Positions 5,381-26,561 of a DNA stretch of 64,000 bases are shown here, one piece after another. The notes under the pieces are model-generated. The model was not told the DNA's origin. It was given only the letters and a program-made list of their open reading frames with translations, and did not search any database. The position numbers and the translations under genes are program-made. Each line of letters begins with the position of its first letter. The stretch's first letter is position 1. Origin of the DNA: Ruegeria halocynthiae. Its GTDB lineage: Bacteria; Pseudomonadota; Alphaproteobacteria; Rhodobacterales; Rhodobacteraceae. The stretch covers positions 357,593 through 421,592 of the forward strand of contig NZ_JQEZ01000003.1 of the NCBI RefSeq assembly GCF_000743705.1. The letters run 5' to 3'.

Positions 5381-6112
5381 GTGCTGTCATCCTTTCTTCA
5401 AAGGTTCGCGCGGCGGACGCCTTTTGATGTTCCCACGCCTTCAGAACCTCTTTGCGTGATCGGCGACGTGCATGGTTGCATCGTGCAGTTGGAAAAGCTG
5501 TTGCACCAGGTGCCACAAGGGTTTCGGACAATTCTGGTGGGGGACTACATCGACCGGGGTGAACACAGCGCCGAGGTGCTGCAGCTTTTAAGCTCACACA
5601 ATGATTTGACCTGTCTGATGGGCAATCACGAAGAGATGTTGTTGCAATTCTTGCGTGACCCCGAACGCCATGGCGCGCGGTGGGTCCGCTATGGGGGTTT
5701 GCAAACGCTTGCCTCATTTGGCATCCGCGGCGCGCGCCCCGAAATGGCCGGCACCGAATTGAAAGACGCGCGTGACAGGTTGCGGGATACGATGGGCGAG
5801 ACCCTGTGTGTCTGGCTGAAGCAGCTGGGCCGATCAGAGATTTCCGGCAATGTTTTGGTTACCCATGCGGGGGCCGACCCCAATCTCTCGCCAGATCAGC
5901 AGCCGGACGAAACGCTGACCTGGGGACATCCGCAATTTCGAACAGCGGACAGAAAGGACGGGGCTTGGGTTGTGCATGGCCACACCATTGTCGACGTGGC
6001 GACAGCGCGTCGGGGGCGGATTTCGATCGACACTGGCGCTTATGCGACAGGAACGTTAAGCGCGGTTTGTCTGACCGGGGCAGAACCCACATTTCTGACG
6101 GCACGGGTCTAA
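5381..6112 (+). CDS. PPP-family metallophosphoesterase (serine/threonine phosphatase-like)
   Basis: Cytosolic metallophosphatase of the bacterial PPP group (similar to PrpA/PrpB), about 243 residues. The metal-binding signatures appear in order: GDVHG (about residues 28-32), GDYIDRG (54-60), GNHE (81-84), then THAGADP and VVHGHT for the last two histidines. Such enzymes remove phosphate from phospho-Ser/Thr proteins or hydrolyse small dinucleotides; the substrate is not visible. No ATG fits. I chose the GTG preceded at ten bases by AGGGGA, and a TTG at 5297 in the same frame is the alternative. It lies about 100 bases after the ClpP-like gene on the same strand. Confidence 0.82.
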   Translation: MLSSFLQRFARRTPFDVPTPSEPLCVIGDVHGCIVQLEKLLHQVPQGFRTILVGDYIDRGEHSAEVLQLLSSHNDLTCLMGNHEEMLLQFLRDPERHGARWVRYGGLQTLASFGIRGARPEMAGTELKDARDRLRDTMGETLCVWLKQLGRSEISGNVLVTHAGADPNLSPDQQPDETLTWGHPQFRTADRKDGAWVVHGHTIVDVATARRGRISIDTGAYATGTLSAVCLTGAEPTFLTARV

Positions 6113-6271
6113 GTTTTTACGCGGTTGACGCCTTTGATCACCCGTCAGCGGCATACCGCGCACAACCTCAGGACTAATCACTCTTTTTTCGGGTTGAAAT
6201 CCCCTCACCCTTGTCAGGACCAGCACCATTCAATAAGACAAGGGCAAAACAGACTATTAATAGAGATTTTT

Positions 6272-7720
6272 ATGTTGATAACACCTGTCCTGCTATGCGG
6301 AGGGTCCGGAACACGACTGTGGCCCCTGTCGCGTAAAAGCTATCCCAAGCAATTTGTTCCGCTTGTTGGTGACGAGACATTGTTCCAGGCGTCGGCGCTG
6401 CGGCTTTCGGGCGTAGGGTCAGGCTTGGAATTTGCCTCGCCCATGGTTGTGACCAACACGGATTTCCGCTTTATCGTCGCCGAACAGCTGGTGGCAATCG
6501 GAATAGACCCCGGAACGATTTTGATCGAACCCGAAGGGCGCAATACGGCACCTGCCATCCTGGCCGCGGCGCTGCACGCGTTTAGCGCAGATCAGGATGC
6601 GGTTTTGCTGGTCGCGCCGTCGGATCACGTTGTGCCGGATGCGGATGCGTTCCGCGCAGCGGTCGTGCGTGGGCTGGATGCCCTTAAGCAGGGGAAGCTT
6701 GTCACATTCGGGATCACGCCGACACATGCGGAAACGGCATACGGGTATCTTGAACTGGCAGAGACGCCGGACAATTCCGGTGCTCCGGTTCCATTGAAGC
6801 AGTTTGTCGAAAAACCCGATGCACAGCGCGCGGCCGAGATGCTGGCGGCCGGGAATTTCAAATGGAACGCCGGGATTTTTCTGTTCCGCGCCTCAGATAT
6901 TCTGGCAGCCTACCGGACACATGCGCCCGAATTGCTTGCCCCTGTCGAAGCCGCGCTTGCCACCGCCACGCCGGATCTTGGCTTTTTGCGGTTGGACCCT
7001 GAACCCTGGGCGCAGGCCGATGATATTTCCATCGACTATGCGGTTATGGAAAAATCTTCCAACCTTTCGGTTGTGCCGTTTGATGCGGCCTGGTCAGACC
7101 TTGGTGGTTGGGATGCGGTCTGGCGCGAGACCGGGCCAGATGAAAACGGGGTTGTCACCAGCGGCGACGCCACGGCCATCGAATGCCAGAACTCGTTGCT
7201 GCGGTCAGACAGTGACCAGTTAGAGCTTGTGGGGATCGGGCTGGAAAACATCATTGCCGTGGCAATGAACGACGCCGTTCTGGTTGCGGATGCGTCCCGG
7301 GCACAGGATGTGAAAAAGGCGGTCGTGGCCCTAAAGGAAAAAGGTGCGCCACAGGCCACGACATTCCCCAAGGATCACCGCCCTTGGGGTTGGTTCGAAA
7401 GCCTTGTGGTCGGCAACCGGTTCCAGGTGAAACGAATCATGGTTCACCCCGGCGCATCATTGAGCCTGCAAAGCCATTTCCACAGGTCCGAGCATTGGAT
7501 CGTGGTCGAAGGCACCGCGCGGGTGACCATTGATGATGACGTGAAACTGGTGACAGAAAATCAATCGGTTTACATCCCCTTGGGTGCGGTGCACCGGATG
7601 GAGAACCCGGGCAAGGTGCCGATGGTTCTGATCGAAGTGCAAACCGGAGCTTATGTGGGCGAAGACGATATCGTCCGCTACGAAGACAAATATGCCCGCG
7701 GGCAGGGTGCCAAGGGCTGA
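6272..7720 (+). CDS. manC: Mannose-1-phosphate guanylyltransferase / mannose-6-phosphate isomerase
   Basis: Makes GDP-mannose from mannose 1-phosphate and GTP for surface polysaccharides; the C-terminal cupin half usually adds phosphomannose isomerase activity. The 482-residue length is normal for the bifunctional type II enzyme. The nucleotidyltransferase signature LLCGGSGTRLWPLSR lies at residues 7-21 with YPKQF just after, then FVEKPD and KWNAGIF. The cupin part shows RPWGWFESL, a KRIMVHPGASLSLQ segment and HRSEHWIVVEGTA near the C-terminus. The start ATG was chosen because it opens directly on the conserved N-terminus; the frame is open upstream to 6125. No other polysaccharide gene is adjacent. 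Confidence 0.93.
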   Translation: MLITPVLLCGGSGTRLWPLSRKSYPKQFVPLVGDETLFQASALRLSGVGSGLEFASPMVVTNTDFRFIVAEQLVAIGIDPGTILIEPEGRNTAPAILAAALHAFSADQDAVLLVAPSDHVVPDADAFRAAVVRGLDALKQGKLVTFGITPTHAETAYGYLELAETPDNSGAPVPLKQFVEKPDAQRAAEMLAAGNFKWNAGIFLFRASDILAAYRTHAPELLAPVEAALATATPDLGFLRLDPEPWAQADDISIDYAVMEKSSNLSVVPFDAAWSDLGGWDAVWRETGPDENGVVTSGDATAIECQNSLLRSDSDQLELVGIGLENIIAVAMNDAVLVADASRAQDVKKAVVALKEKGAPQATTFPKDHRPWGWFESLVVGNRFQVKRIMVHPGASLSLQSHFHRSEHWIVVEGTARVTIDDDVKLVTENQSVYIPLGAVHRMENPGKVPMVLIEVQTGAYVGEDDIVRYEDKYARGQGAKG

Positions 7721-7729
7721 CCTGTGAAG

Positions 7730-7758
7730 GGGTCAGCCATTTATGCGATGGCTGGCCC
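7730..7758 (+). terminator. Stem-loop after manC
   Basis: An 11-bp stem (GGGTCAGCCAT against ATGGCTGGCCC, one G-U pair) with a seven-base loop begins ten bases past the manC stop codon. The downstream run is only moderately T-rich (TGATTTTC), so terminator strength is uncertain. Confidence 0.45.
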
Positions 7759-7845
7759 TGATTTTCAGTGCCGAATAAGGCGCGAGCCGCCGCCATTTCA
7801 GGGAACCCTGCGCGTTGCCGGATTGGCGCGTGGCGCTCGAAAAAA

Positions 7846-7874
7846 TTGACTAAACAGTAAAATAATGTTGGCAT
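7846..7874 (+). promoter_or_regulatory. Candidate promoter/operator of the nucleoside-uptake operon
   Basis: TTGACT (7846-7851) is a good -35 element; 17 bases later TGGCAT is a weak -10. Inside it, GACTaaacAGT forms a short inverted pair, giving an AT-rich site of the kind bound by TetR- or GntR-type regulators. The position, 22-50 bases before the first gene of the operon, fits control of uptake by a nucleobase-sensing repressor. This is inference from position and pattern only. Confidence 0.35.
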
Positions 7875-7895
7875 CCTCTGAAACAGGAGGAAAAA

Positions 7896-8885
7896 ATGGC
7901 CAATTTCAACGTGACGCGAAGGGTAATGCTTGCTGCGGTCGCAGCGGCGTCCACCCTGTTTTCAGCCGGTGTGGCGGCTGCCGAAACCGTGAAAGTGGCG
8001 GCGATTTACACGCTGCCCGTCGAACAGCAATGGATCAGCCGCATTCACCAGGCGCTGAACACCGCGGCCGAACGCGGCGACATTGAATATGTCTTCTCTG
8101 AAAACGTCGCCAACACGGATTATGAGCGCGTGATGCGCGAATATGCCGAACAGGGCGCACAGCTAGTCGTGGGTGAGGTGTTTGGTTTGGAGCGCGCCGC
8201 GCGCAAGGTAGCGAAGGATTATCCCGACACCGCCTTTCTGATGGGGTCGTCTTTTGGGCCGGTCGGACCCAATTTCTCGGTCTTTGACAACTGGATTCAC
8301 GAACCTTCGTATCTGAGCGGCATGGTGGCTGGCGCGGCGACTGAATCGAATGTGATCGGTATGGTCGGCGGCTATGCCATCCCCGAGGTCAACCGCCTGA
8401 TGAACGCCTTCATGGATGGCGCGCGCGAGGTGAACCCGGATGTTACCTTCCTGGTGACCTTTATCGACAGCTGGTACGACCCGCCCAAAGCCAAGGAAAG
8501 CGCCATCGCCATGATGGATGCAGGTGCTGACATCATGTACGCGGAACGCTTTGGCGTCTCGGATGCGGCGGTTGAACGTGGGGTGAAGGCTGTGGGCAAT
8601 GTCATCGACACCTCGGGCGATTACCCCGGTACAATCATGGCCTCGGCCCTGTGGCATATGGAGCCGACCATCGACAAGGCCATCGCCAACGTCGCGAACG
8701 GATCATTCGAGGCTGCGGATTATGGCCAATACAGTTTCATGGGATATGGCGGCGGTTCGCTGGTTCTGGACGAAGCACTGGTTCCCGCCGACATGCTTGA
8801 GGCGGTGAATGCCCGCCAGGCCGAGATTCTGGATGGCCTGTATCGTGTCAACGTGAACGATGATCGCCCGGTTTCAGACAATTGA
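7896..8885 (+). CDS. BMP-family solute-binding protein of a nucleoside/nucleobase ABC importer
   Basis: A 329-residue periplasmic binding protein of the Bmp/PnrA-like family, whose members bind purine or other nucleosides. Residues 1-29 form an export signal with TRR before the hydrophobic core and an AAA/E cleavage region. The family pattern follows: VAAIYTLPVEQQWISRIHQAL, a DYERVMREYAEQGAQLVVGEVFG block, GSSFGPVGPNF, and YLSGMVAGAATESNVIGMVGG. A strong AGGAGG lies six bases before the ATG. It is the first gene of a five-gene operon with ATPase, two permeases and a deaminase, which points to nucleobase or nucleoside uptake feeding catabolism or salvage. Confidence 0.9.
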   Translation: MANFNVTRRVMLAAVAAASTLFSAGVAAAETVKVAAIYTLPVEQQWISRIHQALNTAAERGDIEYVFSENVANTDYERVMREYAEQGAQLVVGEVFGLERAARKVAKDYPDTAFLMGSSFGPVGPNFSVFDNWIHEPSYLSGMVAGAATESNVIGMVGGYAIPEVNRLMNAFMDGAREVNPDVTFLVTFIDSWYDPPKAKESAIAMMDAGADIMYAERFGVSDAAVERGVKAVGNVIDTSGDYPGTIMASALWHMEPTIDKAIANVANGSFEAADYGQYSFMGYGGGSLVLDEALVPADMLEAVNARQAEILDGLYRVNVNDDRPVSDN

Positions 8886-8893
8886 TGGCAACA

Positions 8894-8915
8894 GGGTCGG
8901 CCGCTGCGCCGACCC
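8894..8915 (+). other. Intercistronic hairpin between binding-protein and ATPase genes
   Basis: GGGTCGGC pairs perfectly with GCCGACCC across a six-base loop, in the 39-base gap between the two genes. No T-run follows. Such hairpins commonly protect the upstream message from 3' exonucleases, so the binding protein is made in excess over the membrane parts. Confidence 0.5.
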
Positions 8916-8924
8916 GCTTTCACA

Positions 8925-10442
8925 ATGACGGATTCAACAGTTCTCAAGCTCAACGGGCTAAGCAAGCAGTTCGGCCCGGTTGTTGCCAATGACGACGTCA
9001 GCCTGACCCTGAACCGGGGCGAGGTGCTGGCGCTTTTGGGCGAAAACGGCGCGGGCAAGACCACGCTGATGAACATGCTGTTCGGGCATTACCTGCCCGA
9101 TTCCGGCACGATCGAGGTCGCGGATACAGCGGGTCAATTGCAGCCGCTGCCGCTGGGCCATCCGCAACTGGCGCTGGCGGCGGGCGTGGGTATGGTGCAT
9201 CAGCATTTCACGCTGGCCGAGAACATCTCGGCACTGGATAACATCACGCTGGGGTCCGAACCACTGTTTTCCCTGCGTCGCAACCGGCGCGCGGCGCGGC
9301 GCAGGGTCGAAGAGATCATCGCCCAAAGTGGGCTGAACGCGCCGCTGGATACGCCTGTGGGGCGGTTGTCAGTGGGCGAAAGGCAGCGGGTCGAGATCCT
9401 CAAGGCGCTGTATCGGCAGGCGCGGATACTGGTTTTGGATGAACCCACCGCCGTTTTGACCCCGCAAGAGGCCGACACCCTGTTCGAAAACATCCGCATG
9501 ATGACGAATGACGGGCTGTCGGTGATTTTCATCAGCCACAAATTGCGTGAAGTTCTGGCGTTTTCCGACCGAATCGCAGTGCTGCGCCATGGACGCAAGG
9601 TTGGCGAAATGGCAACGTCCGAGGCTGATGAGACATCCATTGCCCGAATGATGGTCGGGGCGGAAACGCCGGAACTTGCCAGTGCGGCGATGACCCCGGG
9701 CGCGCCGGTACTGACCATGTCCGATGTGTCGGTGGCGGGCCGGTCCAAGCGCGATACGCTCAACGGCGTCAATCTGACCGTACATGCGCATGAAATCCTT
9801 GGGATTGCCGGGGTTTCAGGCAACGGACAAAGCGGGTTGGCCGATGTGATCTCGGGTCTGGCGCATCCTGAACAGGGTCTAATCAAGGTAAATGAGGTGG
9901 AAATTGACACCCTCAGCCCGGCTGCCATGGTGCAGGCGGGCGTGGGCCGCATTCCCGAAGATCGCCACCGCGAAGGTATCGTCGGCGCGATGAGCGTAGC
10001 CGAGAATATGATCATCGAACGTCTGGATGACGGTGGCGTGCAGTCGCGCGGCCTGCTGCGGCGCGAGGCGATGCAAGCCAACGCCGAACGTCTGGCCCAA
10101 GCCTATGATGTGCGCGGGCCAGGCGTGAATGCCCCGGCGCGGCTGCTGTCGGGGGGCAATATCCAGAAACTCATCCTCGCGCGCGTGTTTGACCGCGCGC
10201 CGCAGCTGATCCTGGCCAATCAGCCCACCCGTGGTCTGGATATGGGGGCCGCAGCCGAGGTCGGGCGACGATTGCTTGAGGCGCGCGAACGCGGTGCAGG
10301 AGTGGTGCTGGTCTCGGAAGATCTGGACGAAATTCTGGGTCTTGCCGACCGGATCATGGTGATCCGCGACGGCGAATTGCACCAGACCCCCGGCCGTGAC
10401 CGCGAACAGATTGGCCTGATGATGGCAGGAGAACCGGCATGA
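8925..10442 (+). CDS. ABC transporter ATP-binding protein with two ATPase domains (nucleoside type)
   Basis: A 505-residue cytoplasmic ATPase of the RbsA/MglA/YufO type, powering uptake by the adjoining permeases. The N-terminal domain has Walker A GENGAGKTT (residues 39-47), an LSVGERQR signature near 148 and Walker B LVLDEPT near 168. The second domain starts near residue 262 and has, as usual in this group, a degenerate P-loop (GVSGNGQSG), an intact LLSGGNIQK signature, and ANQPT in place of the Walker B acidic pair, so hydrolysis probably occurs mainly at one site. Its stop codon overlaps the next start by ATGA, indicating coupled translation. Confidence 0.93.
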   Translation: MTDSTVLKLNGLSKQFGPVVANDDVSLTLNRGEVLALLGENGAGKTTLMNMLFGHYLPDSGTIEVADTAGQLQPLPLGHPQLALAAGVGMVHQHFTLAENISALDNITLGSEPLFSLRRNRRAARRRVEEIIAQSGLNAPLDTPVGRLSVGERQRVEILKALYRQARILVLDEPTAVLTPQEADTLFENIRMMTNDGLSVIFISHKLREVLAFSDRIAVLRHGRKVGEMATSEADETSIARMMVGAETPELASAAMTPGAPVLTMSDVSVAGRSKRDTLNGVNLTVHAHEILGIAGVSGNGQSGLADVISGLAHPEQGLIKVNEVEIDTLSPAAMVQAGVGRIPEDRHREGIVGAMSVAENMIIERLDDGGVQSRGLLRREAMQANAERLAQAYDVRGPGVNAPARLLSGGNIQKLILARVFDRAPQLILANQPTRGLDMGAAAEVGRRLLEARERGAGVVLVSEDLDEILGLADRIMVIRDGELHQTPGRDREQIGLMMAGEPA

Positions 10443-11512
10443 TCCGCATAGAACCGCGTCAGACCCAATCGCGGGCCTTTACGCTGGGCGTTCCCATCCT
10501 GTCCGCCGTGATCGCGCTGGCCTTTGCGGCGATCCCCCTGCTGGCCGCCGGGGCCAATCCAATCGCAGCCTACGCCGAGATGTATCGTGGGGTGTTCGGC
10601 TCAGTCTTTGCCTTTTCCGAAGTGCTGACCCGCGCCACGCCGCTGATCTTTACCGGCCTGGCCGCCGCTTTGGCGTTCCGCGCCAAACTGTGGAACATCG
10701 GGGCCGAAGGGCAGCTGTATCTGGGTGCAATGGCCGCCGTTGCCATCGGATCGGGGGTGTTGGATGTGTCCGGTATCCTGCTGTTACCGCTGATCGTGGT
10801 GCTGGGCGCAGCGGCAGGCGCGGCGGGGATGGTTGCGCCGACATATCTAAAAACACGGTTTGGCGCGGATGAGGTGGTCACCACCTTGCTGCTGAATTTC
10901 ATCATTCTGATCTTTGTGCAGATGATGCTGGAAGGCCCGTTACAGGACCCGATGAGCCTGGGTTGGCCACAATCGGCACCCGTTTTGGAGCAGGGAATGC
11001 TGCCGCCCTTGTTGGAGCGGATGCGGGTCCATTCCGGGTTGATTCTGGCTCTGATACTGGCCGGGATGGCCCAATTCATGCTGGCGCGTTCGGTTTGGGG
11101 GTTCCGGTTGCGGGCCGTTGGGGAAAACGCTGCCGCCGCGCGCCATGCGGGGATCAACGTGAAACGCTCGTTGTATGGTGTGGCCATCTTGTCGGGTGGT
11201 CTGGCCGGTTTGGCCGGGGTCAGCGAGGTGGCGGGCCTCAAAGGGTATCTGACCGCCGACCTGTCGCCCGGCTTTGGCTATACCGGTATCGTCGTGGCGA
11301 TGCTGGCGGGCCTGTCGCCGGTGGGCGTCGTGATTGCGGCTTTGTTCATCGCCTCGGTCTTTGTCGGGGCCGACAGCATGAGCCGCGCCATGGGGGTGTC
11401 GTCCTTTCTGGCGGACCTCGTGGTTTCAATGTCGTTACTGTGCGTTCTGGTTGGCGGGTTCGTGGCACGTTATCGGATCGTCCGGGCCAGCACCGCGAGG
11501 GCAGCGTCATGA
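10439..11512 (+). CDS. ABC transporter permease (nucleoside/nucleobase importer, subunit 1)
   Basis: A 357-residue inner-membrane permease of the branched-chain/ribose/nucleoside group (BPD_transp_2). It has about nine hydrophobic helices. The core RAKLWNIGAEGQLYLGAMAAV and the coupling region RAVGENAAAARHAGI, followed by a glycine-rich LSGGLAGLAG helix, are family features; the coupling region contacts the ATPase. It overlaps both the preceding ATPase and the following permease genes by four bases, so three transport genes are translationally linked. Confidence 0.92.
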   Translation: MIRIEPRQTQSRAFTLGVPILSAVIALAFAAIPLLAAGANPIAAYAEMYRGVFGSVFAFSEVLTRATPLIFTGLAAALAFRAKLWNIGAEGQLYLGAMAAVAIGSGVLDVSGILLLPLIVVLGAAAGAAGMVAPTYLKTRFGADEVVTTLLLNFIILIFVQMMLEGPLQDPMSLGWPQSAPVLEQGMLPPLLERMRVHSGLILALILAGMAQFMLARSVWGFRLRAVGENAAAARHAGINVKRSLYGVAILSGGLAGLAGVSEVAGLKGYLTADLSPGFGYTGIVVAMLAGLSPVGVVIAALFIASVFVGADSMSRAMGVSSFLADLVVSMSLLCVLVGGFVARYRIVRASTARAAS

Positions 11513-12453
11513 TGGATATCCTCAATATCCTGTTGTCCGAGAGCTTTTGGGCCGCCTCGCTGCGCATCGCGACGCCGCTGATCTTTGGCGTGCTGGGTGC
11601 GCTGATCTGTGAACGTGCCGGCGTGCTGAACCTTGGGATTGAGGGCATCTTTGTCGTCGGCGCCATGTGCGGATGGATGGCCGTCTGGCTGGGCGCTGGC
11701 CTGTGGGGTGGAGTGTTGGTCGCCGCGCTTGCAGGCGCATTCTTTGGCCTGCTGCACGCCATCCTGACCGTTCCGTTGGGACTGTCGCAGCATGTTTCGG
11801 GGTTGGGGATTACGCTGTTTGCCACCTCGGTCAGCTATTACACCTATCGCACCGCGCTGCCGAATGTATCTTCGCCGCCCAGGATTGAGCCGTTCCAGCC
11901 GCTGGACCTGCCGATCCTGTCTGATTTACCCTTTTTAGGGTCTGTTTTATTCCAGCAAACCGCGCTGACATGGCTGGCGCTGCTGCTGGTGGCGGTGGTC
12001 TGGTACGTGATGAACCGCACGGCGCTGGGTGTGGCGATTCAGGCGGTGGGCGACAACCCCGACAGCGTTGATGCACAGGGGCTGTCAGTCTATGCGTTGC
12101 GGATGGGCGCGGTCGCTGTCGGGTCTGCCCTGATGGCACTGGGCGGGGCCTTCCTGACCATGAGCGCCTTTGACGCCTTTTTCTTCGGCATGGTCAACGG
12201 ACGTGGCTGGGTATGCATCGCTCTGGTGATCTTTGCCAGTTGGCGACCGGGCAAGGCGCTGCTGGGCGCGTTGCTGTTCGGCGCATTCGATGCGTTGCAG
12301 GTGCGGCTACAGACTGAGATCGGCGCGCTTGTTCCCGGTCAGGTGTTCCTGATGGCACCTTATATCCTGTCGATCATCGCGCTTGTGATCGCCGCACGCT
12401 CGGCGGATTATCCGCGTGCATTGCTTACCCCCTGGTTCAAAGGCCAACGATAA
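11509..12453 (+). CDS. ABC transporter permease (nucleoside/nucleobase importer, subunit 2)
   Basis: A 314-residue inner-membrane permease, partner of the preceding one and of the same BPD_transp_2 family. The conserved block CERAGVLNLGIEGIF lies near the N-terminus and the coupling segment QAVGDNPDSVDAQGLSV in the C-terminal half; about eight to nine membrane helices are visible. The frame is open far upstream, but the true start is the ATG in the ATGA overlap with the upstream permease stop, since the conserved region begins there. The deaminase gene starts two bases after its stop. Confidence 0.92.
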   Translation: MMDILNILLSESFWAASLRIATPLIFGVLGALICERAGVLNLGIEGIFVVGAMCGWMAVWLGAGLWGGVLVAALAGAFFGLLHAILTVPLGLSQHVSGLGITLFATSVSYYTYRTALPNVSSPPRIEPFQPLDLPILSDLPFLGSVLFQQTALTWLALLLVAVVWYVMNRTALGVAIQAVGDNPDSVDAQGLSVYALRMGAVAVGSALMALGGAFLTMSAFDAFFFGMVNGRGWVCIALVIFASWRPGKALLGALLFGAFDALQVRLQTEIGALVPGQVFLMAPYILSIIALVIAARSADYPRALLTPWFKGQR

Positions 12454-12455
12454 TC

Positions 12456-13793
12456 ATGTTCGATCTGCTCATCAAAAACGCCACCCTGACCGACGGACAG
12501 ACCGGTGTGGATATCGCCTGCAAGGACGGCAAGATCGCTGCGGTCGAGGCCGGGATCACCGCCGAAGCGGCTGAGGTGATCGACGCCGGAGGTCAGCTGG
12601 TCTCACCCCCTTTTGTCGATCCGCATTTTCATATGGATGCAACCCTGTCGCTGGGCACGCCACGCATGAATGTCTCGGGCACCTTGCTTGAAGGCATCGC
12701 GCTGTGGGGCGAGCTGAAGCCGATCCAGACGGTTGATGACATCGTCGCCCGCGCTCTGCGGTACTGTGAGCTGGCCGTAGCCAAGGGGATCGGCGCGATC
12801 CGCAGCCATGTGGACACCTGCGATGATGAATTGAAGGGTGTGCAAGCCCTGTTGCAGGTCCGCGCGCAGGTAAAAGACTATCTGGACCTGCAATTGGTGG
12901 CCTTTCCGCAGGACGGGGTTCTGCGCGATCCTACCGCGATGCAAAACACCATCCGCGCGCTGGATATGGGGGTGGATGTCGTGGGTGGCATTCCGCATTT
13001 CGAACGCACCATGGCCGAAGGCGCGGAATCCGTGCGTCTGCTGTGTGAAATCGCAGCCAAGCGGGGCCTGATGGTCGACATGCATTGCGACGAAAGCGAC
13101 GATCCCCAAAGCCGCCATATCGAAACGCTGGCCTGCGAAACCCAACGTTTGGGTCTGAATGGTCGGGTGGCGGGCTCGCATCTGACGTCGATGCATTCGA
13201 TGGACAACTACTATGTCTCCAAGCTGATCCCGCTGATGGTCGAGGCCGGGGTGCATGCGATCCCGAACCCGTTGATCAACATCATGCTTCAGGGCCGCCA
13301 TGATAGCTATCCCAAGCGCCGCGGCCAGACCCGCGTGCGCGAGTTGCGCGATGCCGGGATTACTGTGGGCTTCGGGTCGGATTGCGTGATGGACCCGTGG
13401 TATTCGCTGGGCAAGGCCGACATGCTGGATGTGGCCTTCATGGGCCTGCATGTGGGGCAATTGTCCAGCCGCGCCGATATGGCGTGGTGTTTCGATGCGG
13501 TCACGGAAAATTCGGCGCGGATCATGGGGTTGCAGGGCTATGGCGTGGCCAAAGGGTGCGCGGCAAATTTCGTGCTGTTGCAGGCCACCGACCCGATCGA
13601 GGCGATCCGGCTACGCGCCCATCGTTTGGCTGTGGTGCGCAAGGGGCGCGTTATTGCGCGGTCGAATCCGGTGATCCACGAGGTGAACCTGGGTGCTGGC
13701 CAAAAGCCGCTGGACGAAGCGCGGGTGCCCTTTGTGTCCGAGGGCCCGGACCCGGTGATTTCTGGTGGAATTCGTGATTCACGGTTCGAATGA
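12456..13793 (+). CDS. Cytosine-deaminase-like amidohydrolase
   Basis: A 445-residue cytoplasmic metal-dependent hydrolase of the CodA branch of the amidohydrolase superfamily, expected to deaminate cytosine or a related nucleobase to a keto base plus ammonia. Metal ligands are visible as PHFHMD (H57, H59), HCDE (H210, with E213 the likely proton shuttle) and D309 in GSDCVMDPWY. AFPQ and the PNPLINIMLQGRHDSYPKRRG block match E. coli CodA closely. The residue after the metal aspartate is Cys310, where E. coli CodA has Asp314. That position shapes substrate choice, so the natural substrate may differ from cytosine. As the last gene of the uptake operon it would process the imported compound. 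Confidence 0.85.
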   Translation: MFDLLIKNATLTDGQTGVDIACKDGKIAAVEAGITAEAAEVIDAGGQLVSPPFVDPHFHMDATLSLGTPRMNVSGTLLEGIALWGELKPIQTVDDIVARALRYCELAVAKGIGAIRSHVDTCDDELKGVQALLQVRAQVKDYLDLQLVAFPQDGVLRDPTAMQNTIRALDMGVDVVGGIPHFERTMAEGAESVRLLCEIAAKRGLMVDMHCDESDDPQSRHIETLACETQRLGLNGRVAGSHLTSMHSMDNYYVSKLIPLMVEAGVHAIPNPLINIMLQGRHDSYPKRRGQTRVRELRDAGITVGFGSDCVMDPWYSLGKADMLDVAFMGLHVGQLSSRADMAWCFDAVTENSARIMGLQGYGVAKGCAANFVLLQATDPIEAIRLRAHRLAVVRKGRVIARSNPVIHEVNLGAGQKPLDEARVPFVSEGPDPVISGGIRDSRFE

Positions 13794-19170: not shown

Positions 19171-20250
19171 ATGTCGAACCAGCAATTTGACGCCTTGATT
19201 GAAGAGACGCAGCAAAAAGTGCGTGAAAGCCAGTCGCAGATTGCAGGGCTGACATCGCGAATTGACGCCGCGCGGGCCAAGATCGGCACCGCCGAGGCGG
19301 ATATCGACATCGAAAACGCCACGCTTGAGGATGTGCACGCCCATACCGAGGTGATGAATGCCAATATCGCCGAGCTGATCATGGGGCTGGATGACGTCAC
19401 CAGCGCGTTCTCCAAGGATTTTGACGAGATGCGCTCGAAATCCGGGTGGGAGGCGTTTGTCGGCATCTTCTCGAAAGGCAAATCTGAATCGATGCGGCAG
19501 GAGCGGATGCGCACCGCCAATATCGACGACAAGCTGCAAGACCTGATCGCCAAATCCGACGTGATCGTGCAACTGCTGCAAGGGCAGTTATCGGTGTTGG
19601 AAGAACAGCGGGTCAAAGTTGAGGACAACCTGACCGTCACGCTGGACGACCGCGAGGCGACGGTGGCCGAGTTGGAGGCCCTGCGCGCCGAGATTCAGGG
19701 CATGGACCCCGCGATCATCACGTTGGAGAACAAGATCAGCGTCGAACAGGACGCCGCCGCGCGCACCCAGCTGGAGACCGAATTGGCCGAGTTGAACAAG
19801 CAATACAACGCCAAGGTTCAGGAAGAGCAGGTCAAGCTGGCCAAATCGCAGACGCTGGAGCGCTATATCGAAAAGGGCAAGACCTGGGTCGACTCCCTAC
19901 AGAACCAGGCCGCGACGCAGATGGTGCTGATCAACAAGCTGCAAACAGACACCCAGCAGCGCGTGGTGTTGTATGACGCCCTGACCAAATCGCTGAAAAC
20001 AGCACAGCAGCAGGACGTGGCCCACCGCATCAACGAGATCGGCGTGCAGACCGACCAAGAGGCGCAGACCGCCATGGCCTCCATCGGTACCGCGACCAAC
20101 CAGAAAATGGCCGACATGCTTGAGGCGCACGAAGACCACATGGTCTTTGCCCGCGACGTGCTGGAGAAAAAGGCCAAGGCAGATGAACGCTTTGCGCGGC
20201 GGTTTGCCTCGATTGTCGAGAAGCATGATAAGAATTTGTATGGTGGGTGA
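19171..20250 (+). CDS. Coiled-coil protein of unknown function, first gene of the nine-gene operon
   Basis: A 359-residue soluble protein with no signal peptide, rich in Gln, Glu, Lys and Ala, and predicted almost wholly helical. Heptad-like stretches cover residues about 5-65, 125-250 and 310-350. A less helical SGWEAFVGIFSKGKSES insert lies near 90-106. The middle-to-late part (YIEKGKTWVDSLQNQAATQ, then VLINKLQTDTQQRVVLYDAL) faintly recalls TelA/KlaA toxic-anion-resistance proteins, but I do not consider that assignment secure. AAGGGG precedes the ATG. Its stop overlaps the next start. It could be a scaffold or membrane-associated filament partner for the AAA+ ATPase encoded downstream; that is inference. 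Confidence 0.8.
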   Translation: MSNQQFDALIEETQQKVRESQSQIAGLTSRIDAARAKIGTAEADIDIENATLEDVHAHTEVMNANIAELIMGLDDVTSAFSKDFDEMRSKSGWEAFVGIFSKGKSESMRQERMRTANIDDKLQDLIAKSDVIVQLLQGQLSVLEEQRVKVEDNLTVTLDDREATVAELEALRAEIQGMDPAIITLENKISVEQDAAARTQLETELAELNKQYNAKVQEEQVKLAKSQTLERYIEKGKTWVDSLQNQAATQMVLINKLQTDTQQRVVLYDALTKSLKTAQQQDVAHRINEIGVQTDQEAQTAMASIGTATNQKMADMLEAHEDHMVFARDVLEKKAKADERFARRFASIVEKHDKNLYGG

Positions 20251-20639
20251 TGTATAACCCTAGAATGAGAGCTTGCCTGGCGTTCGGACTATTTTTCTTT
20301 GCGCTGACGGCACTAATTTTTTCGGTACCAACTTATTTTTCGGAGTCGGTGAAAGTAGAATACAACAACGGTTTCACTGGGGAGTCTGGAGAATACACAG
20401 CTCCAGGTTCGCAACTTGTTGCGATGCTTGTCGCTTTTCCTGTTGTTTTTGGCCTATTTGGAGCGTTTTTTGGTTGGCAAGCGCGTAAGCAGCGCCAGTT
20501 AACCCTTTTGGCCGCTTCCAACCCAGTAGCACCGATATACTTGAAGAAAAAAATCAAAACGCGGTTCTTAGACCGAACTCTTTACCGATTGAACCTAGAC
20601 GGAACCGATATGCAGGTCGCTGGGATCAAAAATGACTGA
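20250..20639 (+). CDS. Small two-helix membrane protein, unknown
   Basis: A 129-residue protein with two hydrophobic helices (about residues 8-28 and 55-77) flanking an acidic, glycine-rich extracytoplasmic loop, then a basic cytoplasmic tail with KKKIKTR. Codon use and AT content are noticeably unlike the neighbouring soluble genes. Its ATG overlaps the upstream stop (TGATG), and its own stop overlaps the next start by eight bases, so it is translationally embedded in the operon. No family recognised. Confidence 0.75.
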   Translation: MYNPRMRACLAFGLFFFALTALIFSVPTYFSESVKVEYNNGFTGESGEYTAPGSQLVAMLVAFPVVFGLFGAFFGWQARKQRQLTLLAASNPVAPIYLKKKIKTRFLDRTLYRLNLDGTDMQVAGIKND

Positions 20640-21750
20640 CCCCACCCAAGACCATGTCGGCCTGACTGATACCTTCGCCTCGCGTCGCTATTTTCGTAAA
20701 TTCGAGGTGATCACCGTCCACCTCCTGCGCGTGGCTGCAACGATGGAGGCGGAGGGCGCGATCTCGAAACAAGAGGTGCGGATCGTGTCGCGTTACCTCT
20801 CGGGGCTGCTCTACACTTTCCGCGCGCTGTCCATGAAATACCTGCTGGTCGGGCGCAATACGGGGCGGTTCTTTGGCAGCCTCGCCATGGACAAGCGCGA
20901 CAGCGGGTTTCCCGTGGCGGCCGAGTTGCTGACAATGGCCAACGACGCGCAGCAGGCGCAGGTGCATCTGGCCAATATGCCGTCCGAGGATGAACTGAAA
21001 ACCGATATGGTCCGTACCATCATCAGCGACCGGGAAATCCCCACCAAGCTGCAATTCGCGCTGTCTCAAAGGCTCTATTACGAGGAATTGCTGAAAGGTC
21101 AGCTGTTCTGGGCCCGCAACGATCCCGAATGTCACTGGATCGGCAACGAAGGCGAACGGCGCAAATTTCTGATCCACTGGGCGGTCTATGACAGCCAGAT
21201 CAACCTGCCGGTCATCTACCTGTTGCAGCTTGAGGACAGCGGCAAAACCGCCCTGCCCAAAGACCAACGCCGCTGGCCCGAGGTTCAGGCGCATCTGATG
21301 GCGCAGGCGCTGGGCGGGTTGAAACTGGTGACCATCGCCAAAGGCTTCGATCAGGATTTCGACGATCTGCACCCGAAACATCTGCGCCGCATCCATGTGG
21401 GGCCGATGTATTCCTCGGCCTATACCGAACAGTCCGGTCCCTTGCGGCAAGTGTTGGAGGACGCGCAGGCGCCCGAAGGCCAAGACTGGGCGCTGGCCTG
21501 GACCACCGAAGAGCTAGAAAGCGAAGAGGTGATCGAAGAACGCGCTGGGTGGTTTTCCACCGTCGAGCGCGAGATTTTCGCGCTGGACCCGTTCGGAGGG
21601 CAGGGGGCCGAAACCGGGGCCACGCGCACCCAGCGATCGATCATCTTGCCGCAGCGCCCGTTTCAGGTACTGGCCGAACGTAACCCGCCGGGTTTTGGCG
21701 ATGTGCGCAAGTTCGTCGTCAGCAAGGCCGGGCAGGTCTTGAGATATTGA
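20632..21750 (+). CDS. Uncharacterised soluble protein of the nine-gene operon
   Basis: A 372-residue protein without signal peptide or membrane segments. The N-terminal half looks helical (YFRKFEVITVHLLRVAATMEAEGA; YLSGLLYTFRALSMKYLLVG). The middle has conserved-looking aromatic patches (GQLFWARNDPECHWIGNEGERRKFLIHWAVYDSQ, here split for description). The last 90 residues are acidic, with an SEEVIEE run before a basic tail. I recognise no domain. It starts inside the preceding gene and is followed 22 bases later by the AAA+ ATPase gene, so it is most likely a physical or functional partner of that ATPase. Confidence 0.75.
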   Translation: MTDPTQDHVGLTDTFASRRYFRKFEVITVHLLRVAATMEAEGAISKQEVRIVSRYLSGLLYTFRALSMKYLLVGRNTGRFFGSLAMDKRDSGFPVAAELLTMANDAQQAQVHLANMPSEDELKTDMVRTIISDREIPTKLQFALSQRLYYEELLKGQLFWARNDPECHWIGNEGERRKFLIHWAVYDSQINLPVIYLLQLEDSGKTALPKDQRRWPEVQAHLMAQALGGLKLVTIAKGFDQDFDDLHPKHLRRIHVGPMYSSAYTEQSGPLRQVLEDAQAPEGQDWALAWTTEELESEEVIEERAGWFSTVEREIFALDPFGGQGAETGATRTQRSIILPQRPFQVLAERNPPGFGDVRKFVVSKAGQVLRY

Positions 21751-21772
21751 AGACAGCAAAGGCGATTTTTCG

Positions 21773-23704
21773 ATGAGTTTGACGTCAGATCAGATGGAAT
21801 TGCGCGAAGACGACATTCGCAAGCATTATTCGGCAGCGACCGCCTTGCTGAACGGGTTTGAACACGCGCCGCGGATAGCCAAAGCGGTTGAGGTGGCGGT
21901 CGAGCGGTCTCCGGGCGTTTCAACTGGACGGCGGTTCCGCTCCACGACGCCGGGGCTGGTGACACGCCGAACCGTGCGCGCAGATGGAGTGCATCTGGTC
22001 GAACGGATCGAGGCCTCGGATGATGGCGATGTGTTGGTCTCGCCGCCTCAGGCGACCACGCAACAGGCCATTCGTCGGGCGATTGCCATCGCGTTGGCTG
22101 TGGCAGAGGCCTATGCGGAACAGACCCCGCTGGCCGACTTGAAGCGGGCGAACCTTGCTGGCGACTTGTCTGCCGCCCGCAAGACAGAATTCTCCGAACT
22201 GCTGACGGCGGAGGCGTTGATTACGTCGCACACGTTTGGCAATGCGCTCGCTTACCTGATGTCTTCGCATCTGGGCGAAACCACGGTCGACATTGGCGAG
22301 ATCGAAGAAGTTCTGACCGACAATGGCCAGCTTGCCCTGCACGGTGCGCTGTGGGAGCTGGATCAGACGCTGGCCAAACATGCGCCCGACGATGCCCACC
22401 TGATCGCCGCCACCAGTGCCTATTCTGAACAGCTGATGGAGAAATCCGCCCTACGTGCCCAGTCCGCAGGCCATCTGGCCCCGTTCCAGAACGCCGCTTG
22501 GCATATCGAAGCCGACGATCTGACCATTCGTGGCTTTGAACCCGCATCCAAGGCTAAATCCACCACCCTGACCATGACGTTCAAGAAACCCAACGAGGTG
22601 GTCGGCAACCACATTGCCAAGTATCAGGCGATGAAGCTGGCCAAGATGGTGATGGCCTATGATTTCGACCGCCGCCAGAACCCGTTCGCGGAACTCGGCG
22701 GGTTCATCTTTACCTTCATGGGCGACGGCAAGCCGGGCACCGGCAAGACGACCCTGATCCAGATGATGGCCGGGCTGATCAACGACTATTGCCAGAACGC
22801 GGGCTATCCGTTCCGCTATCAGAACCTGAGCACCGACAATATCGACAGCTATCAGGGCAAATCCGGCCAGAACGCCAAGGCCTTTATCAACACGATCATC
22901 GACCCCTCGGTCATCGGCTTCGGCACCATCGACGATATCGACCAGCTTGCAGGCAAGCGCGGCGACCGGCAGTCGTCAGCCGGTCAGCTTGAGATCACCG
23001 CCGTGCTGATGGAGAGCTTCGCGGGCGCCAATACCGTCGTGCGCGGCAACTGTACCTTTGGCATGTTCTCGAACTACCCCGAGAATGTGGACGACGCCCT
23101 GCGCCAGCGCGCGGGCGCGCGGTTCCTGGTGGACGGGCCGCAGACGCGTGAGGATTACATCGACATCCTTCACCTGCTGATGGGCCGCAACCACGACATC
23201 CCGCTGGGCGAGCACGAAGCCTATGCTGCGCAGGAGATCAAGAAGGCCGTTGCCGCCAGTTTCGAAAGCCACGCCCGCCCGCATGAGGACGCTTTGCTGC
23301 AGGTCTATGACCGGGTTCAGGGTCAGATCGGTCAGTTGGACACCATCGCCAAGATGGGCACCTACCTCAAGGCGATCCAAGCCGCGGATGAGCGGTTCAC
23401 CGGTCGCGCCATCAAGAACATCACCGACGCGGTCAAGGTCCGCGCGATGGATTTCGAACTGCCCGACGAATGGATGGAAAACCCCGACCTGTTCCTGTTC
23501 CGCGACTACGACACCAAGAAGGCCATGATTGAGGACCTGCGTCAGCCGATCACGGTTGAGATGGTGATGCAAGAGATCAACCGCTACGCCGACAGCGAGT
23601 TCCGCTATGCCGACAAGAGCGACGAGGTCGCCATCGAAAACGCCGTCCGCGAGATGGGCCGGATGGAAGAGGCTAAGCGGCGGTATCTGGAGGGGAAGGG
23701 GTGA
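21773..23704 (+). CDS. AAA+ ATPase of the nine-gene operon
   Basis: A 643-residue cytoplasmic protein: about 300 N-terminal residues of unknown fold, then an AAA+ module. Walker A reads GDGKPGTGKTT (about residues 316-326), Walker B-like GFGTIDDID near 380, sensor-1 FSN in GMFSNYPENVDDALRQRAGARF near 430, and the RQR arginines in that block are arginine-finger candidates. The last 200 residues are mainly helical and acidic-basic mixed. The family is not one I can name; it is neither a clear MoxR nor a FtsH/Clp protein. The preceding gene ends 22 bases upstream and the next gene overlaps its stop. It probably remodels a membrane-associated complex made by its neighbours. Confidence 0.82.
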   Translation: MSLTSDQMELREDDIRKHYSAATALLNGFEHAPRIAKAVEVAVERSPGVSTGRRFRSTTPGLVTRRTVRADGVHLVERIEASDDGDVLVSPPQATTQQAIRRAIAIALAVAEAYAEQTPLADLKRANLAGDLSAARKTEFSELLTAEALITSHTFGNALAYLMSSHLGETTVDIGEIEEVLTDNGQLALHGALWELDQTLAKHAPDDAHLIAATSAYSEQLMEKSALRAQSAGHLAPFQNAAWHIEADDLTIRGFEPASKAKSTTLTMTFKKPNEVVGNHIAKYQAMKLAKMVMAYDFDRRQNPFAELGGFIFTFMGDGKPGTGKTTLIQMMAGLINDYCQNAGYPFRYQNLSTDNIDSYQGKSGQNAKAFINTIIDPSVIGFGTIDDIDQLAGKRGDRQSSAGQLEITAVLMESFAGANTVVRGNCTFGMFSNYPENVDDALRQRAGARFLVDGPQTREDYIDILHLLMGRNHDIPLGEHEAYAAQEIKKAVAASFESHARPHEDALLQVYDRVQGQIGQLDTIAKMGTYLKAIQAADERFTGRAIKNITDAVKVRAMDFELPDEWMENPDLFLFRDYDTKKAMIEDLRQPITVEMVMQEINRYADSEFRYADKSDEVAIENAVREMGRMEEAKRRYLEGKG

Positions 23705-23997
23705 TGCTCGTTTACGCCATTTCCGTTCTGGCATTTGTGCTAGGCCTGATCTTGCCTCTTCGCTGGGGTGTGTTCGGATTTATTGGCGCCGTGGCGGTTC
23801 TGTTTCTGACCCAGTTCGGCGTGAACACAGGCAACGGGTTTGAGGGCACCACTTGGGAGGAATCCTTGATCCTGTTCGAAGGCAGCGTGGTGTCTTACAT
23901 CGGGTTCAACCTGCAGATTTCAGCGCGCGCGTTTGCATTGCCGCTGTTGGTTTTGGCGGTTGTGGTCGTTGGGCGGTTCAATAGAGCAGTGTTATGA
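23704..23997 (+). CDS. Small multi-helix membrane protein, unknown
   Basis: A 97-residue, strongly hydrophobic protein with three probable membrane helices (about residues 2-18, 20-37 and 76-92) and an amphipathic segment holding GNGFEGTTWEES. The ATG overlaps the ATPase stop (TGATG) and the gene ends in an ATGA overlap with the next. No family recognised. Confidence 0.72.
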   Translation: MLVYAISVLAFVLGLILPLRWGVFGFIGAVAVLFLTQFGVNTGNGFEGTTWEESLILFEGSVVSYIGFNLQISARAFALPLLVLAVVVVGRFNRAVL

Positions 23998-24230
23998 GTA
24001 AATTGATTTTTCTCACTCCCATTGTTATTTTTGCAGTCGTTTTGGCTGTATTCATGACAGTCACCATGTGCGGTTGGGAGGGATTGCTGCCCAAGAACTT
24101 TAGTATCATTGGCACATGTGCTGCGACGGACTCACCAAGCGAAGTATTTTTCAGCTTCCTGATGCTTGGAGGTATTCTCGGTGCCACCGGAATGTCGCTG
24201 GTTCTTTTTTGGCGGCGGGTGTCGAGATGA
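23994..24230 (+). CDS. Very small membrane protein, unknown
   Basis: A 78-residue protein with two membrane helices (about residues 5-25 and 50-72) and a short loop with two cysteines (TMCGWEG and GTCAAT) that could pair in the periplasm. The base composition is clearly more AT-rich than neighbouring genes. It overlaps the upstream gene by four bases, which supports its reality despite the small size. No family recognised. Confidence 0.65.
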   Translation: MSKLIFLTPIVIFAVVLAVFMTVTMCGWEGLLPKNFSIIGTCAATDSPSEVFFSFLMLGGILGATGMSLVLFWRRVSR

Positions 24231-24297
24231 TGCACGTCGCATTGATGCAAACACTGTGCGCTGACCATCACAACCGTTGTGCGCAAAGGCAAATGTC

Positions 24298-25635
24298 ATG
24301 ATCCGCCTCATCGAAAAAGGCCTGATGTTCGGCAATCTCGTCCACATCTCCAGCCCGGCTCTGGTCGAGCGGTATAACCGCGCGCTGCAGCATCTGGCGG
24401 GCAAGACCACGGCGCTGACGGATTTTCATGTCGATATCTCGGGCTATTCGCCCGAGGTGGGGATTGAGCTGGAGGACGAGCTCTACCTCAACCCCAACGG
24501 GGTCAACCGACAGTTCATCCTGCTGACGACCGAACAGAAACGCGCGCCTTTGCTGAACGTCAAATTCTCGACCTCGCGCGATATCCTGCGCGAATTCATC
24601 GAGATGAACGAGGCGCAGCTGTTTGCCCTGACCGCCACCGATGCCGTGGCCGGAGAGCTGGTGAACTCGGTCATCAAACTCTCCACGCCACGCGATCTGC
24701 TGAACCTGCGCAAGATCGAGATCGAGGCCGACACCGCAGGCGGCACCCTGCGCAAGGCGCAGCAACTGGCGGGCATGGTCGAGCGGTTCAAGACCGAAGA
24801 GGACGCCTGGTTCGACGATGTGCTGATTGCGAAGATGATCGAAACGGCCAAAGAAACCGGCGACGTCACACGCAACCCCGTCCGCCTGCGCCATACCGCG
24901 TTTGAGCAACGCAATTTCTGGACGGCGCATTTCGGCGGGCTCTATCTGTTCCCCGATCTCGATCACCCGGCAGCGATCTGCATGGGTGAAAAGCCTGACG
25001 AAATGCCGATCAAATACGTCTTCGACCCGTCGCAACGGAACAAGATCGCCAAGTTTCTTGGGCTGAACGATCTGGTCGAAACGATTATCGAAGCGCGCGG
25101 CGTGAATTCCGCCGCGATCCTGCAACAAAAGATGGATTTTCTGACCGTCGACGCTGCCGCTGGCGCGGGCGTTGACCTGACGGGGCTGGATCGCAACGAC
25201 ATGCGGCGTCTGGCGCGCAATCATGCGGATCGCCTGCCCAAGGCGTATCACGGCCTTGCCCAATTGCTGCGCTGGGCGAAAGATGGCGGTCCGTGGCCGC
25301 GCATCACGTCGGATCACCCGGCCTATTTCTATACGTTGCGCGCGACCGATACGCCCAATCGTGATCTGGTGAACATGCTACTGGCCGAGCTTGCACCCCT
25401 GGACCCGCGCCAGATGTTCATCTGCCACAAAGAACTGTTCTACAGCACCTATTCCACATGGCCCGAGGCCAAGAAAGCCTATGTTGCCGATTTCCTCGTG
25501 CGCGAGTATCAGGTGGACAAGGCGGGCGCCCGCACCGCTTTGTTCGGACACGAACCGGACATGAGCGGAACCGACAGGGTCAGCGATGACATCATCGCCC
25601 GCGTCGGCCCCTGGGGCGCGGTAGGGAGAAGTTGA
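24298..25635 (+). CDS. DUF6638-like soluble protein of the nine-gene operon
   Basis: A 445-residue cytoplasmic protein. The N-terminus, MIRLIEKGLMFGNLVHISSPALVERYNRAL, and the following GKTTALTDFHVDISGYSPEVG and YLNPNGVNRQFILL blocks match proteins I know from Rhodobacteraceae as DUF6638. No catalytic role is known. The GKTT string is not part of a P-loop (no upstream G-x4 turn). The frame opens at a TTG at 24277, but the ATG at 24298 has AAGG upstream and starts the conserved region. The gap of 67 bases to the preceding gene is the largest in the operon; the next gene begins immediately after the stop. Confidence 0.75.
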   Translation: MIRLIEKGLMFGNLVHISSPALVERYNRALQHLAGKTTALTDFHVDISGYSPEVGIELEDELYLNPNGVNRQFILLTTEQKRAPLLNVKFSTSRDILREFIEMNEAQLFALTATDAVAGELVNSVIKLSTPRDLLNLRKIEIEADTAGGTLRKAQQLAGMVERFKTEEDAWFDDVLIAKMIETAKETGDVTRNPVRLRHTAFEQRNFWTAHFGGLYLFPDLDHPAAICMGEKPDEMPIKYVFDPSQRNKIAKFLGLNDLVETIIEARGVNSAAILQQKMDFLTVDAAAGAGVDLTGLDRNDMRRLARNHADRLPKAYHGLAQLLRWAKDGGPWPRITSDHPAYFYTLRATDTPNRDLVNMLLAELAPLDPRQMFICHKELFYSTYSTWPEAKKAYVADFLVREYQVDKAGARTALFGHEPDMSGTDRVSDDIIARVGPWGAVGRS

Positions 25636-25902
25636 ATGTTCGTCGCACTGCGTTTTCTGATCCCGCTGCTGATTTTTCTGACGATCCTCTATGTCGGAGT
25701 GTCGATCTATTCCCGCTGGGTGCGGCGCGGTAAACTGATCGCGCATTGGGAAAAGAAGGGGCTGACCGGCGACCGCGATGCTTTTGTCCGGCGCGGGCTG
25801 GAAAAATATGACGGATCGTTTCGCCGTAAACTGATCCTGGGGATTTACGTGGTGCCGCTGGGCCTGATCGCAATCCTGATTTATGTTACGAATTTCATGT
25901 GA
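25636..25902 (+). CDS. Small membrane protein with basic loop, unknown
   Basis: An 88-residue protein with two membrane helices (about residues 4-24 and 66-86) joined by a basic, probably cytoplasmic loop (RRGKLIAHWEKKGLTGDRDAFVRRGLEKYDG, given in part). Its ATG abuts the upstream stop codon without a gap. No family recognised; position and topology make it a membrane component of the same set. Confidence 0.72.
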   Translation: MFVALRFLIPLLIFLTILYVGVSIYSRWVRRGKLIAHWEKKGLTGDRDAFVRRGLEKYDGSFRRKLILGIYVVPLGLIAILIYVTNFM

Positions 25903-25913
25903 GGGTTTCGCGG

Positions 25914-26561
25914 ATGCGTTACATCAAATGGGCCATCATCTTTCTGTTCTGGGGCACGATTGCTGCGGTACTTAATTACACCCTGCCGCAGCAGGACGTG
26001 GTACGGGTTGTCAAAACCGAGGTGCGCCGGGTCGACTTCGGCGAGAACTCGATTTTTTGGGCGCAGCAGGACACAGGTCAGGAGACCGCGCAGGCAGTCA
26101 ACCGCGATGTGCGTTTCGTCGAAACGTTCCGCCCCAATGGAAAGCCGCGGGTCTATCGCAACGAGGATACTGGCTGGGGCTGGCCACCCTATTTCAAGCT
26201 CGACAGTTCGAACCTACAGGCCGAACTGACCAATCTTGTGTCCACTGCGGATAACCCGAAATGGGTAGTGTTGCGCCATTATGGCTGGCGTAATCAGCTT
26301 ATGTCGATCTTCCCCAACGTAGTCTCGGTGCGCCCGGTGGACAGCCCAGATGTGCGGTTGATCCCGTGGTTCAACATTATCTTCCTGACCATGTTCTTTG
26401 CGATCATCTGGGCCATCTGGGTGCGCTGGCGCCGGTTCCGCGAGGCCCGCGTCGATCCGGTGCTCGAGAACATGGAAGACGGGCTCTACGCCGCAGGTGA
26501 CGCAATCGAAGAAAAAAGCAGCCGGTTCAAGAAATGGTTGGACAGCTGGAAATCCAAGTGA
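25914..26561 (+). CDS. DUF1523-family membrane protein, last gene of the nine-gene operon
   Basis: A 215-residue protein with an N-terminal membrane helix (residues 4-22), a 120-residue extracytoplasmic domain containing RPNGKPRVYRNEDTGWGWPP, a second helix near 145-165, and a basic, amphipathic C-terminal tail. This is the DUF1523 pattern, common in Rhodobacteraceae and uncharacterised. I chose the ATG with GAGGG eight bases upstream rather than the GTG at 25899. Its extracytoplasmic domain would be the part of the system that meets the periplasm. Confidence 0.78.
   Translation: MRYIKWAIIFLFWGTIAAVLNYTLPQQDVVRVVKTEVRRVDFGENSIFWAQQDTGQETAQAVNRDVRFVETFRPNGKPRVYRNEDTGWGWPPYFKLDSSNLQAELTNLVSTADNPKWVVLRHYGWRNQLMSIFPNVVSVRPVDSPDVRLIPWFNIIFLTMFFAIIWAIWVRWRRFREARVDPVLENMEDGLYAAGDAIEEKSSRFKKWLDSWKSK

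Follow-up and report, generated by a model that had tools for sequence, protein, structure and literature searches.

Which genes of a tightly packed bacterial operon form a fixed set, and which are exchanged around it? The question is raised by nine genes, here called A to I, found in the ORF (open reading frame) survey at 19171-26561 on the + strand of a 64,000-nucleotide stretch of Ruegeria halocynthiae DNA (GCF_000743705.1, contig NZ_JQEZ01000003.1, positions 357,593 to 421,592; the whole stretch is called the window below). Comparison with relatives reveals a constant core, A-C-D-G, to which H-I is added in Rhodobacteraceae. In two slots, A-C and D-G, and rarely in C-D, whole genes differ between close relatives and are read along the operon. 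We suggest, with a probability of roughly 0.4, that this is an AAA+ ATPase core with exchangeable effectors, probably directed against phages.

Conservation and spread of the core

In the window, the core comprises A (19171-20250; 359 amino acids (aa), helical and coiled-coil-like, of no assigned family, with homologues in Vibrio and Sinorhizobium), C (20632-21750; 372 aa, alpha+beta), D (21773-23704; 643 aa, a classic AAA+ ATPase) and G (24298-25635; 445 aa, DUF6638). They are followed by the two Rhodobacteraceae core genes, H (25636-25902; an 88-aa membrane protein) and I (25914-26561; a 215-aa DUF1523 membrane protein). D was found in 51 of 54 genomes of the genus, in 119 of 295 of the family and in 3 of 190 of the class, all three from Rhodobacteraceae. 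From the 119 positive family genomes 100 operons were fetched, the 19 omitted being the window's own genome and others, mostly with matches that are fragmented or close to a contig end. Ninety-seven of the 100 keep the full order A-C-D-G-H-I, with C in the same place and H after G, and no core gene is missing from any of the 51 genus genomes (49 fetched, L162 and the window). H follows G also in one genome from another class (G523). Lengths of the core proteins are nearly invariant in the 97 ordered loci (356-364 aa for A); the intervals are -10 to 52 bases (median 1) between G and H and 3 to 33 (median 10) between H and I. As for the exceptions, one operon runs off its contig (L239) and in another no G was seen within about 15 kb of sequence (L236/L275). 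In the remaining one, L180/L274 (L274 1144-7059, reverse complement), G, H and I lie 5.9 kb behind D, and two unrelated ORFs of 327 and 1314 aa stand between.

The named relatives nearest to D belong to Ruegeria and are mostly 95-98% identical, in a sample that is biased to close relatives because the best 80 of 579 confirmed loci were taken. All six core genes were recognised in 73 of these 80. Among the other seven, four are short, one has no detectable H but all the rest (L093), one shows no G, H or I (L057) and one shows D alone (L054). Outside the family the four-gene core was also found. DUF6638 is present in 20 of 299 genomes of the phylum, 10 of them outside the family, and all 10 were fetched and keep the A-C-D-G order. 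It also occurs on ten plasmid records, and the five fetched (three Vibrio, two Sinorhizobium) all show this gene order.

Some features of these distant replicons can be recorded here. On three large Vibrio replicons of 0.88-0.94 Mb (L242, region 5670-13218; L243; L246) a slot-free A-C-D-G set is located just before an mfd gene; L242 carries a secA gene, and two of the three carry an RNase H family gene. In pSymB of Sinorhizobium meliloti (L244, 4955-11517), D and G are separated by an endonuclease-domain gene and an IS4-type element, and a DUF2333 protein follows G in place of the H-I of Rhodobacteraceae.

A reading of the window made from its letters alone (below, the sequence-only reading) had taken the nine genes as one unit, an ATPase-centred operon with membrane proteins, and had proposed comparing its neighbourhood among relatives. 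The ATPase-centred operon with membrane proteins stands, and the order of the core is kept, but B, E and F are not. These three are drawn from an exchangeable set, so the nine genes do not form a single invariant machine.

Turnover of the slot genes

The window has B in its A-C slot (20250-20639; 129 aa, two predicted membrane helices) and E (23704-23997; 97 aa, three helices) and F (23994-24230; 78 aa, two helices) in its D-G slot, all on the + strand; membrane helices were predicted throughout by a simple hydropathy count. The extent of exchange was measured in 20 Ruegeria-like loci (19 named ones and the window), as DNA aligned over at least half of its length in each of the 190 pairs. D and H-I were aligned in 190 of 190 pairs, against 7 for the A-C slot and 3 for the D-G slot; the 3 kb upstream and downstream of the operon were aligned in 95 and 154 pairs. 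We count a constant core with rarely shared slots in favor of a modular machine.

Slot sizes vary widely in the 97 ordered family loci, with A-C intervals from -11 to 1005 bases, C-D from -1 to 1595 and D-G from -4 to 1734. Slots of at least 150 bases were found at A-C in 45 loci, at C-D in 14 and at D-G in 83. In the 51 genus genomes the slots contain 104 ORFs of at least 70 aa, which are mechanical picks and may include a few false ones, chiefly in loci of high GC. They form 41 families, 23 of them singletons; predicted membrane helices number at least two in 79 of the 104 ORFs and one in 10. All 18 multi-member families are confined to one slot, and in the mixed locus set one single-linkage cluster joined A-C and D-G members. 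Slots have a mean GC content of 0.48-0.49 in the genus, and the core of named Ruegeria loci (the 95-97% group) has 0.59-0.60. Slots and core differ little in the 97 family loci (0.587 against 0.607 for A-C, 0.576 against 0.614 for D-G), the slot being below the core in 27 of 45 A-C and 54 of 83 D-G slots. Recent cross-genus transfer of the window's slot genes was not seen, as the slot proteins that are shared show lower similarity than the core does.

Where a slot gene is common to several species, it evolves quickly, though under purifying selection. The ratio of nonsynonymous to synonymous polymorphism (pN/pS) is 0.27 for B, 0.23 for E and 0.37 for F, and 0.23-0.71 over 13 slot families with at least three members. 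Among the core genes, in 14 of the 51 loci (Ruegeria-like), it is 0.04 for A, 0.05 for C, 0.06 for D and 0.11 for G. In the same 14 loci H and I, although fixed in position, evolve about as fast as slot genes (0.40 and 0.27). A rate of change several times that of A, C and D in the shared slot families would suit an explanation without any exchange, in which a few orthologues common to the loci have diverged past recognition. This is very improbable and largely refuted, since lengths, helix numbers and genes per slot differ outright, as do domains (a membrane protein in one locus, Mrr or AbiJ in another).

Families are also bound to their slots. B was found in 5 of the 51 genus loci, only in the A-C slot, and is common to few Ruegeria loci; F was found in 4, only in the D-G slot. 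E was detected in 11 and another D-G gene, the L033-type, in 9 of the 54 genus genomes, with one match per genome and never both. By coordinates, all 20 matches are on the strand of D and within about 350 bases behind it. Within these 54 genomes the two families tested are therefore dedicated to this slot.

Junctions and replacement of whole coding sequences

Reading the junctions bears out that seven of the eight gaps are below 25 bases, as had been claimed for the window. A/B and D/E are both TGATG, B/C is an overlap of 8 bases, C/D a gap of 22 bases, E/F an ATGA, G/H has 0 bases and H/I 11 bases (or a 4-base overlap from a GTG at 25899). The sole exception is F/G, with a gap of 67 bases, or 46 with an alternative TTG start at 24277. 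Promoter and terminator scans of the operon were uninformative, their scores being not above those of shuffled sequences, so a single transcript for the nine genes is only inferred from their spacing.

Across loci, slot genes fit closely at their ends. Among loci whose A-C slot contains a gene, the final one overlaps the start of C (8 or 4 bases) in 30 of 40 from the genus and 20 of 34 from the family. The stop of the final D-G gene is joined to the start of G as ATGA in 31 of 45 genus and 48 of 76 family loci. In the window the B/C junction obeys this stop-start rule but F/G does not. The longest slot ORF is oriented along the operon in 118 of 139 family slots. ORFs starting exactly on the stop of D are also frequent (34 ORFs over 83 family D-G slots; 24 of 45 in the genus), an excess that is in part an artefact of the ORF finder, which picks up the GTG in D's frequent GGGTGA ending; the argument for fit thus rests on the stop-side overlaps. 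As these are kept across loci, whole coding sequences have been replaced with their overlaps preserved, presumably by recombination in the flanking core genes.

Proteins of the core

D matches PF00004, the classic AAA family, above the cut-off (E 1.4e-11). Its Walker A (PGTGK), Walker B (IDDID or VDDID), sensor-1 and second-region-of-homology arginines are kept in ten D proteins compared, ranging from Ruegeria to rhizobia and Vibrio, with a slight difference in the sensor and arginine stretch in Vibrio. The AAA+ assignment, made from the sequence alone with candidates for these motifs and an arginine finger, is thus well founded. The N-terminal part of about 300 aa is of no recognised kind. 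That none of the proteins was a known family member is too strong, since G matches PF20343/DUF6638 over its full length (positions 1-439 of 439; E 2.7e-230, 765 bits) and I does so with PF07509/DUF1523 (positions 1-176 of 176; E 2.8e-72, 242 bits), both above the cut-off. We know of no function for either family: a literature search on DUF6638, DUF6384 and DUF6635 returned no paper naming them, and in a search on DUF1523 the papers naming it were unrelated by title and no function was found. A, B, C, E, F and H have no match above cut-off in Pfam or NCBIfam and only weak ones in PADLOC. The best PADLOC match of the core is TRIP13 for D (5.3e-6), weak and of generic AAA type. In PHROGs only D has matches at E<0.005, all AAA-type; D and E had no match in phages and B none in plasmids.

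Structures were predicted with AlphaFold2 for C and G, as had been proposed. The models are confident for C (predicted local distance difference test 87, predicted template modelling score 0.87) and fair for G (80 and 0.74), but Foldseek returned nothing against the PDB at E<=0.001 for either. A tunnelling-fold enzyme (urate oxidase and others) was considered for C, with a best VIA Z of 5.3 over residues about 173-336, and for G the best VIA Z was 5.8 over about 50 helical residues. Both are below the informative level, so no fold was assigned to either protein. These results hint that the folds of C and G may be uncommon.

For A, the faint TelA-like signal noticed before was not supported. 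In Pfam A has no match to TelA up to E 1, and the only PF05816 match of the genome is on contig C1 and not with the operon on C3. An hhalign comparison gave a probability of 0.15% (E 0.4), at the level of the controls (four of five column shuffles at 0.1 to 0.4%, one printing none; reversed 0.2%), although the TelA set is small and little diverse, which makes this a weak test. PspA_IM30 and Snf7 were likewise rejected for A, with no Pfam match up to E 1, and the genome's own PspA_IM30 match (PF04012) is on contig C1, apart from the operon.

Products of the slots and possible function of the operon

Most slot products are small membrane proteins, and some are lipoprotein-like or of nuclease or Abi type. 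In the genus, D-G cargo includes an Mrr nuclease in 3 of 51 loci (Mrr_cat about 1e-32) and AbiJ_NTD4 in one (8.4e-9). Other relatives have a DUF2971/PDC-S31 protein (PADLOC 1.2e-23), a DrmA-like ATPase (7.6e-9), an HNH protein (PADLOC 2.5e-5; Pfam 0.0012, below cut-off) and a weak HEPN-like one (1.7e-4). Seventy-five cargo proteins of at least 120 aa from the 97 family loci were searched in Pfam (E<=0.001) and PADLOC. DUF559 was found in five, MTES_1575 in three and AbiJ_NTD4 in two, with one protein each for Mrr_cat, Mrr_N, putAbiC, Schlafen AlbA_2 and NA-iREase1. Further single matches are to DUF3825, two thioredoxin-like models and HATPase. In PADLOC there were eleven model matches from five proteins, one of AbiP type; the other four were identified.

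The putAbiC protein (L170; 3.4e-16) shares an N-terminal module of two transmembrane helices (2TM) with the L033-type family, the C-terminal parts of the two being different. This module was found in 24 cargo proteins; in 22 the C-terminal part is of sufficient length for a comparison, and these form groups of 20, 1 and 1. Four L033-type or related 2TM or soluble proteins scanned alone had no Pfam match above cut-off, and L033- and L038-type cargo had no match in plasmids. AbiJ-type cargo has relatives on alphaproteobacterial plasmids. A 212-aa D-G cargo protein of no Pfam family (L202; 4569-5204, minus strand) is related to proteins on 17 plasmid records from Alphaproteobacteria, of which 8 are typed as conjugative. 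The D-G slots of L115, L121, L123, L129 and L131 hold a cluster of five proteins, taken by sequence to be the five DUF559 matches; the example shown ends in a repeat-like reading frame, perhaps a mobile repeat-linked gene.

A constant core with alternative cargo is the mark of modular defence with exchangeable effectors, and it is what was found here. Where D-G cargo is recognisable, it tends towards nuclease and Abi types. We count the Mrr, AbiJ_NTD4, putAbiC, Schlafen AlbA_2, DUF559 and HNH- and HEPN-like D-G cargo in favor of an effector role. The slot-confined families, the seamless ends and the 2TM module on different C-terminal parts are counted in favor of a modular machine. In such a machine, D with A, C and G would form a cytoplasmic switch, driven by ATP through D and docked at the inner membrane through H-I. 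The switch would sense an insult, most likely phage infection, and restrain or deploy the slot-encoded effectors, which may be membrane-disrupting small proteins or nucleases, and an arms race with phages would drive their exchange.

Several observations weigh against this proposal. No core protein has a system-specific match in PADLOC 2.0, most cargo has no known family, a thioredoxin-like and a DUF3825 protein are part of it and DUF559 is not specifically a defence family. PADLOC matches in 5 of 75 cargo proteins against 1 of 75 flanking controls, drawn from 187 flanking ORFs, are not a significant excess (one-sided Fisher 0.10). In 9 of the 97 family loci no slot exceeds 150 bases, so the core can stand without cargo. 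The near-universal core in the genus (51 of 54) and the window neighbours of the operon, FlgI downstream and a phytase-like gene upstream, are unlike a mobile defence island.

The same near-universality, the very strong constraint on A, C and D, the membrane proteins H and I and the 79 slot ORFs with two or more predicted helices would fit a core for envelope stress or membrane remodelling, as the sequence-only reading had it. Slot genes would then be fast-changing membrane subunits or adaptors that tune the core and have no role in immunity. Bacterial AAA+/PspA membrane operons have been described (10.1128/msystems.00847-23), and a role in membrane remodelling or stress response is possible. 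However, Pfam gives neither PspA nor TelA for A up to E 1, and the Mrr, AbiJ, putAbiC and Schlafen-type genes of the D-G slot are unlike envelope subunits. Slot content points to defence at least as much as to envelope functions, and we regard this explanation as rather unlikely.

The variety of the cargo could also mean that the slots are a permissive, well-expressed landing site, where accessory genes, defence genes included, are recombined in through the conserved flanks with no working link to the core. The thioredoxin-like protein, a 526-aa multi-membrane protein in a C-D slot, the large unrelated inserts and the plasmid relatives of AbiJ-type and L202-type cargo are in line with this. 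On the other hand, a landing site would not predict slot-specific families, two of them found in this slot only among 54 genomes, nor the absence of cargo between G, H and I in all 97 loci measured, and we consider it unlikely.

Comparison with known systems

CBASS (cyclic oligonucleotide-based anti-phage signalling systems), Avs and similar modular defence systems combine a constant core with alternative effectors, the cargo being membrane proteins or nucleases. The operon has the same design, with a constant core and alternative membrane or nuclease cargo. It differs in the lack of a specific PADLOC match for its core and in having its cargo in several fixed, overlapped slots inside the operon. 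The design resembles modular defence, with a core that is outside all systems modelled in PADLOC. A literature search on defence in Rhodobacterales found nothing.

According to PMC9122126, hotspots of P2 phages and P4 satellites carry variable genes, some of them antiviral, between conserved genes, and the operon shares this with its antiviral-type cargo. Unlike those described there, its slots lie inside one co-directional chromosomal operon, with two tested slot families that are dedicated. PMC11237479 describes ESCRT-like PspA/Snf7 systems with AAA+ ATPases, where a helical protein, an ATPase and membrane proteins share one operon. The present operon joins the same kinds of protein, but A is without a PspA match up to E 1 and the PspA_IM30 gene is on another contig.

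A more specific proposal, which we make tentatively, is that the operon represents a new class of immune machine, in which the AAA+ core, anchored at the membrane by H-I, drives slot-specific effectors exchanged as whole coding sequences that slip in between the overlapping stops and starts. C and G would possibly have unseen folds, the A-C slot would provide small membrane proteins and the D-G slot membrane or nuclease effectors.

Implications for Rhodobacteraceae

If the modular reading is true, 119 of the 295 sampled family genomes would have an immune or stress machine that is missed by PADLOC, and a large pool of orphan membrane proteins would be marked as its likely effectors. Even without a role in defence, the seamless exchange of whole genes in an overlapped operon with a strongly constrained core is out of the ordinary, and the slots offer swap experiments made by nature for learning what the core does.

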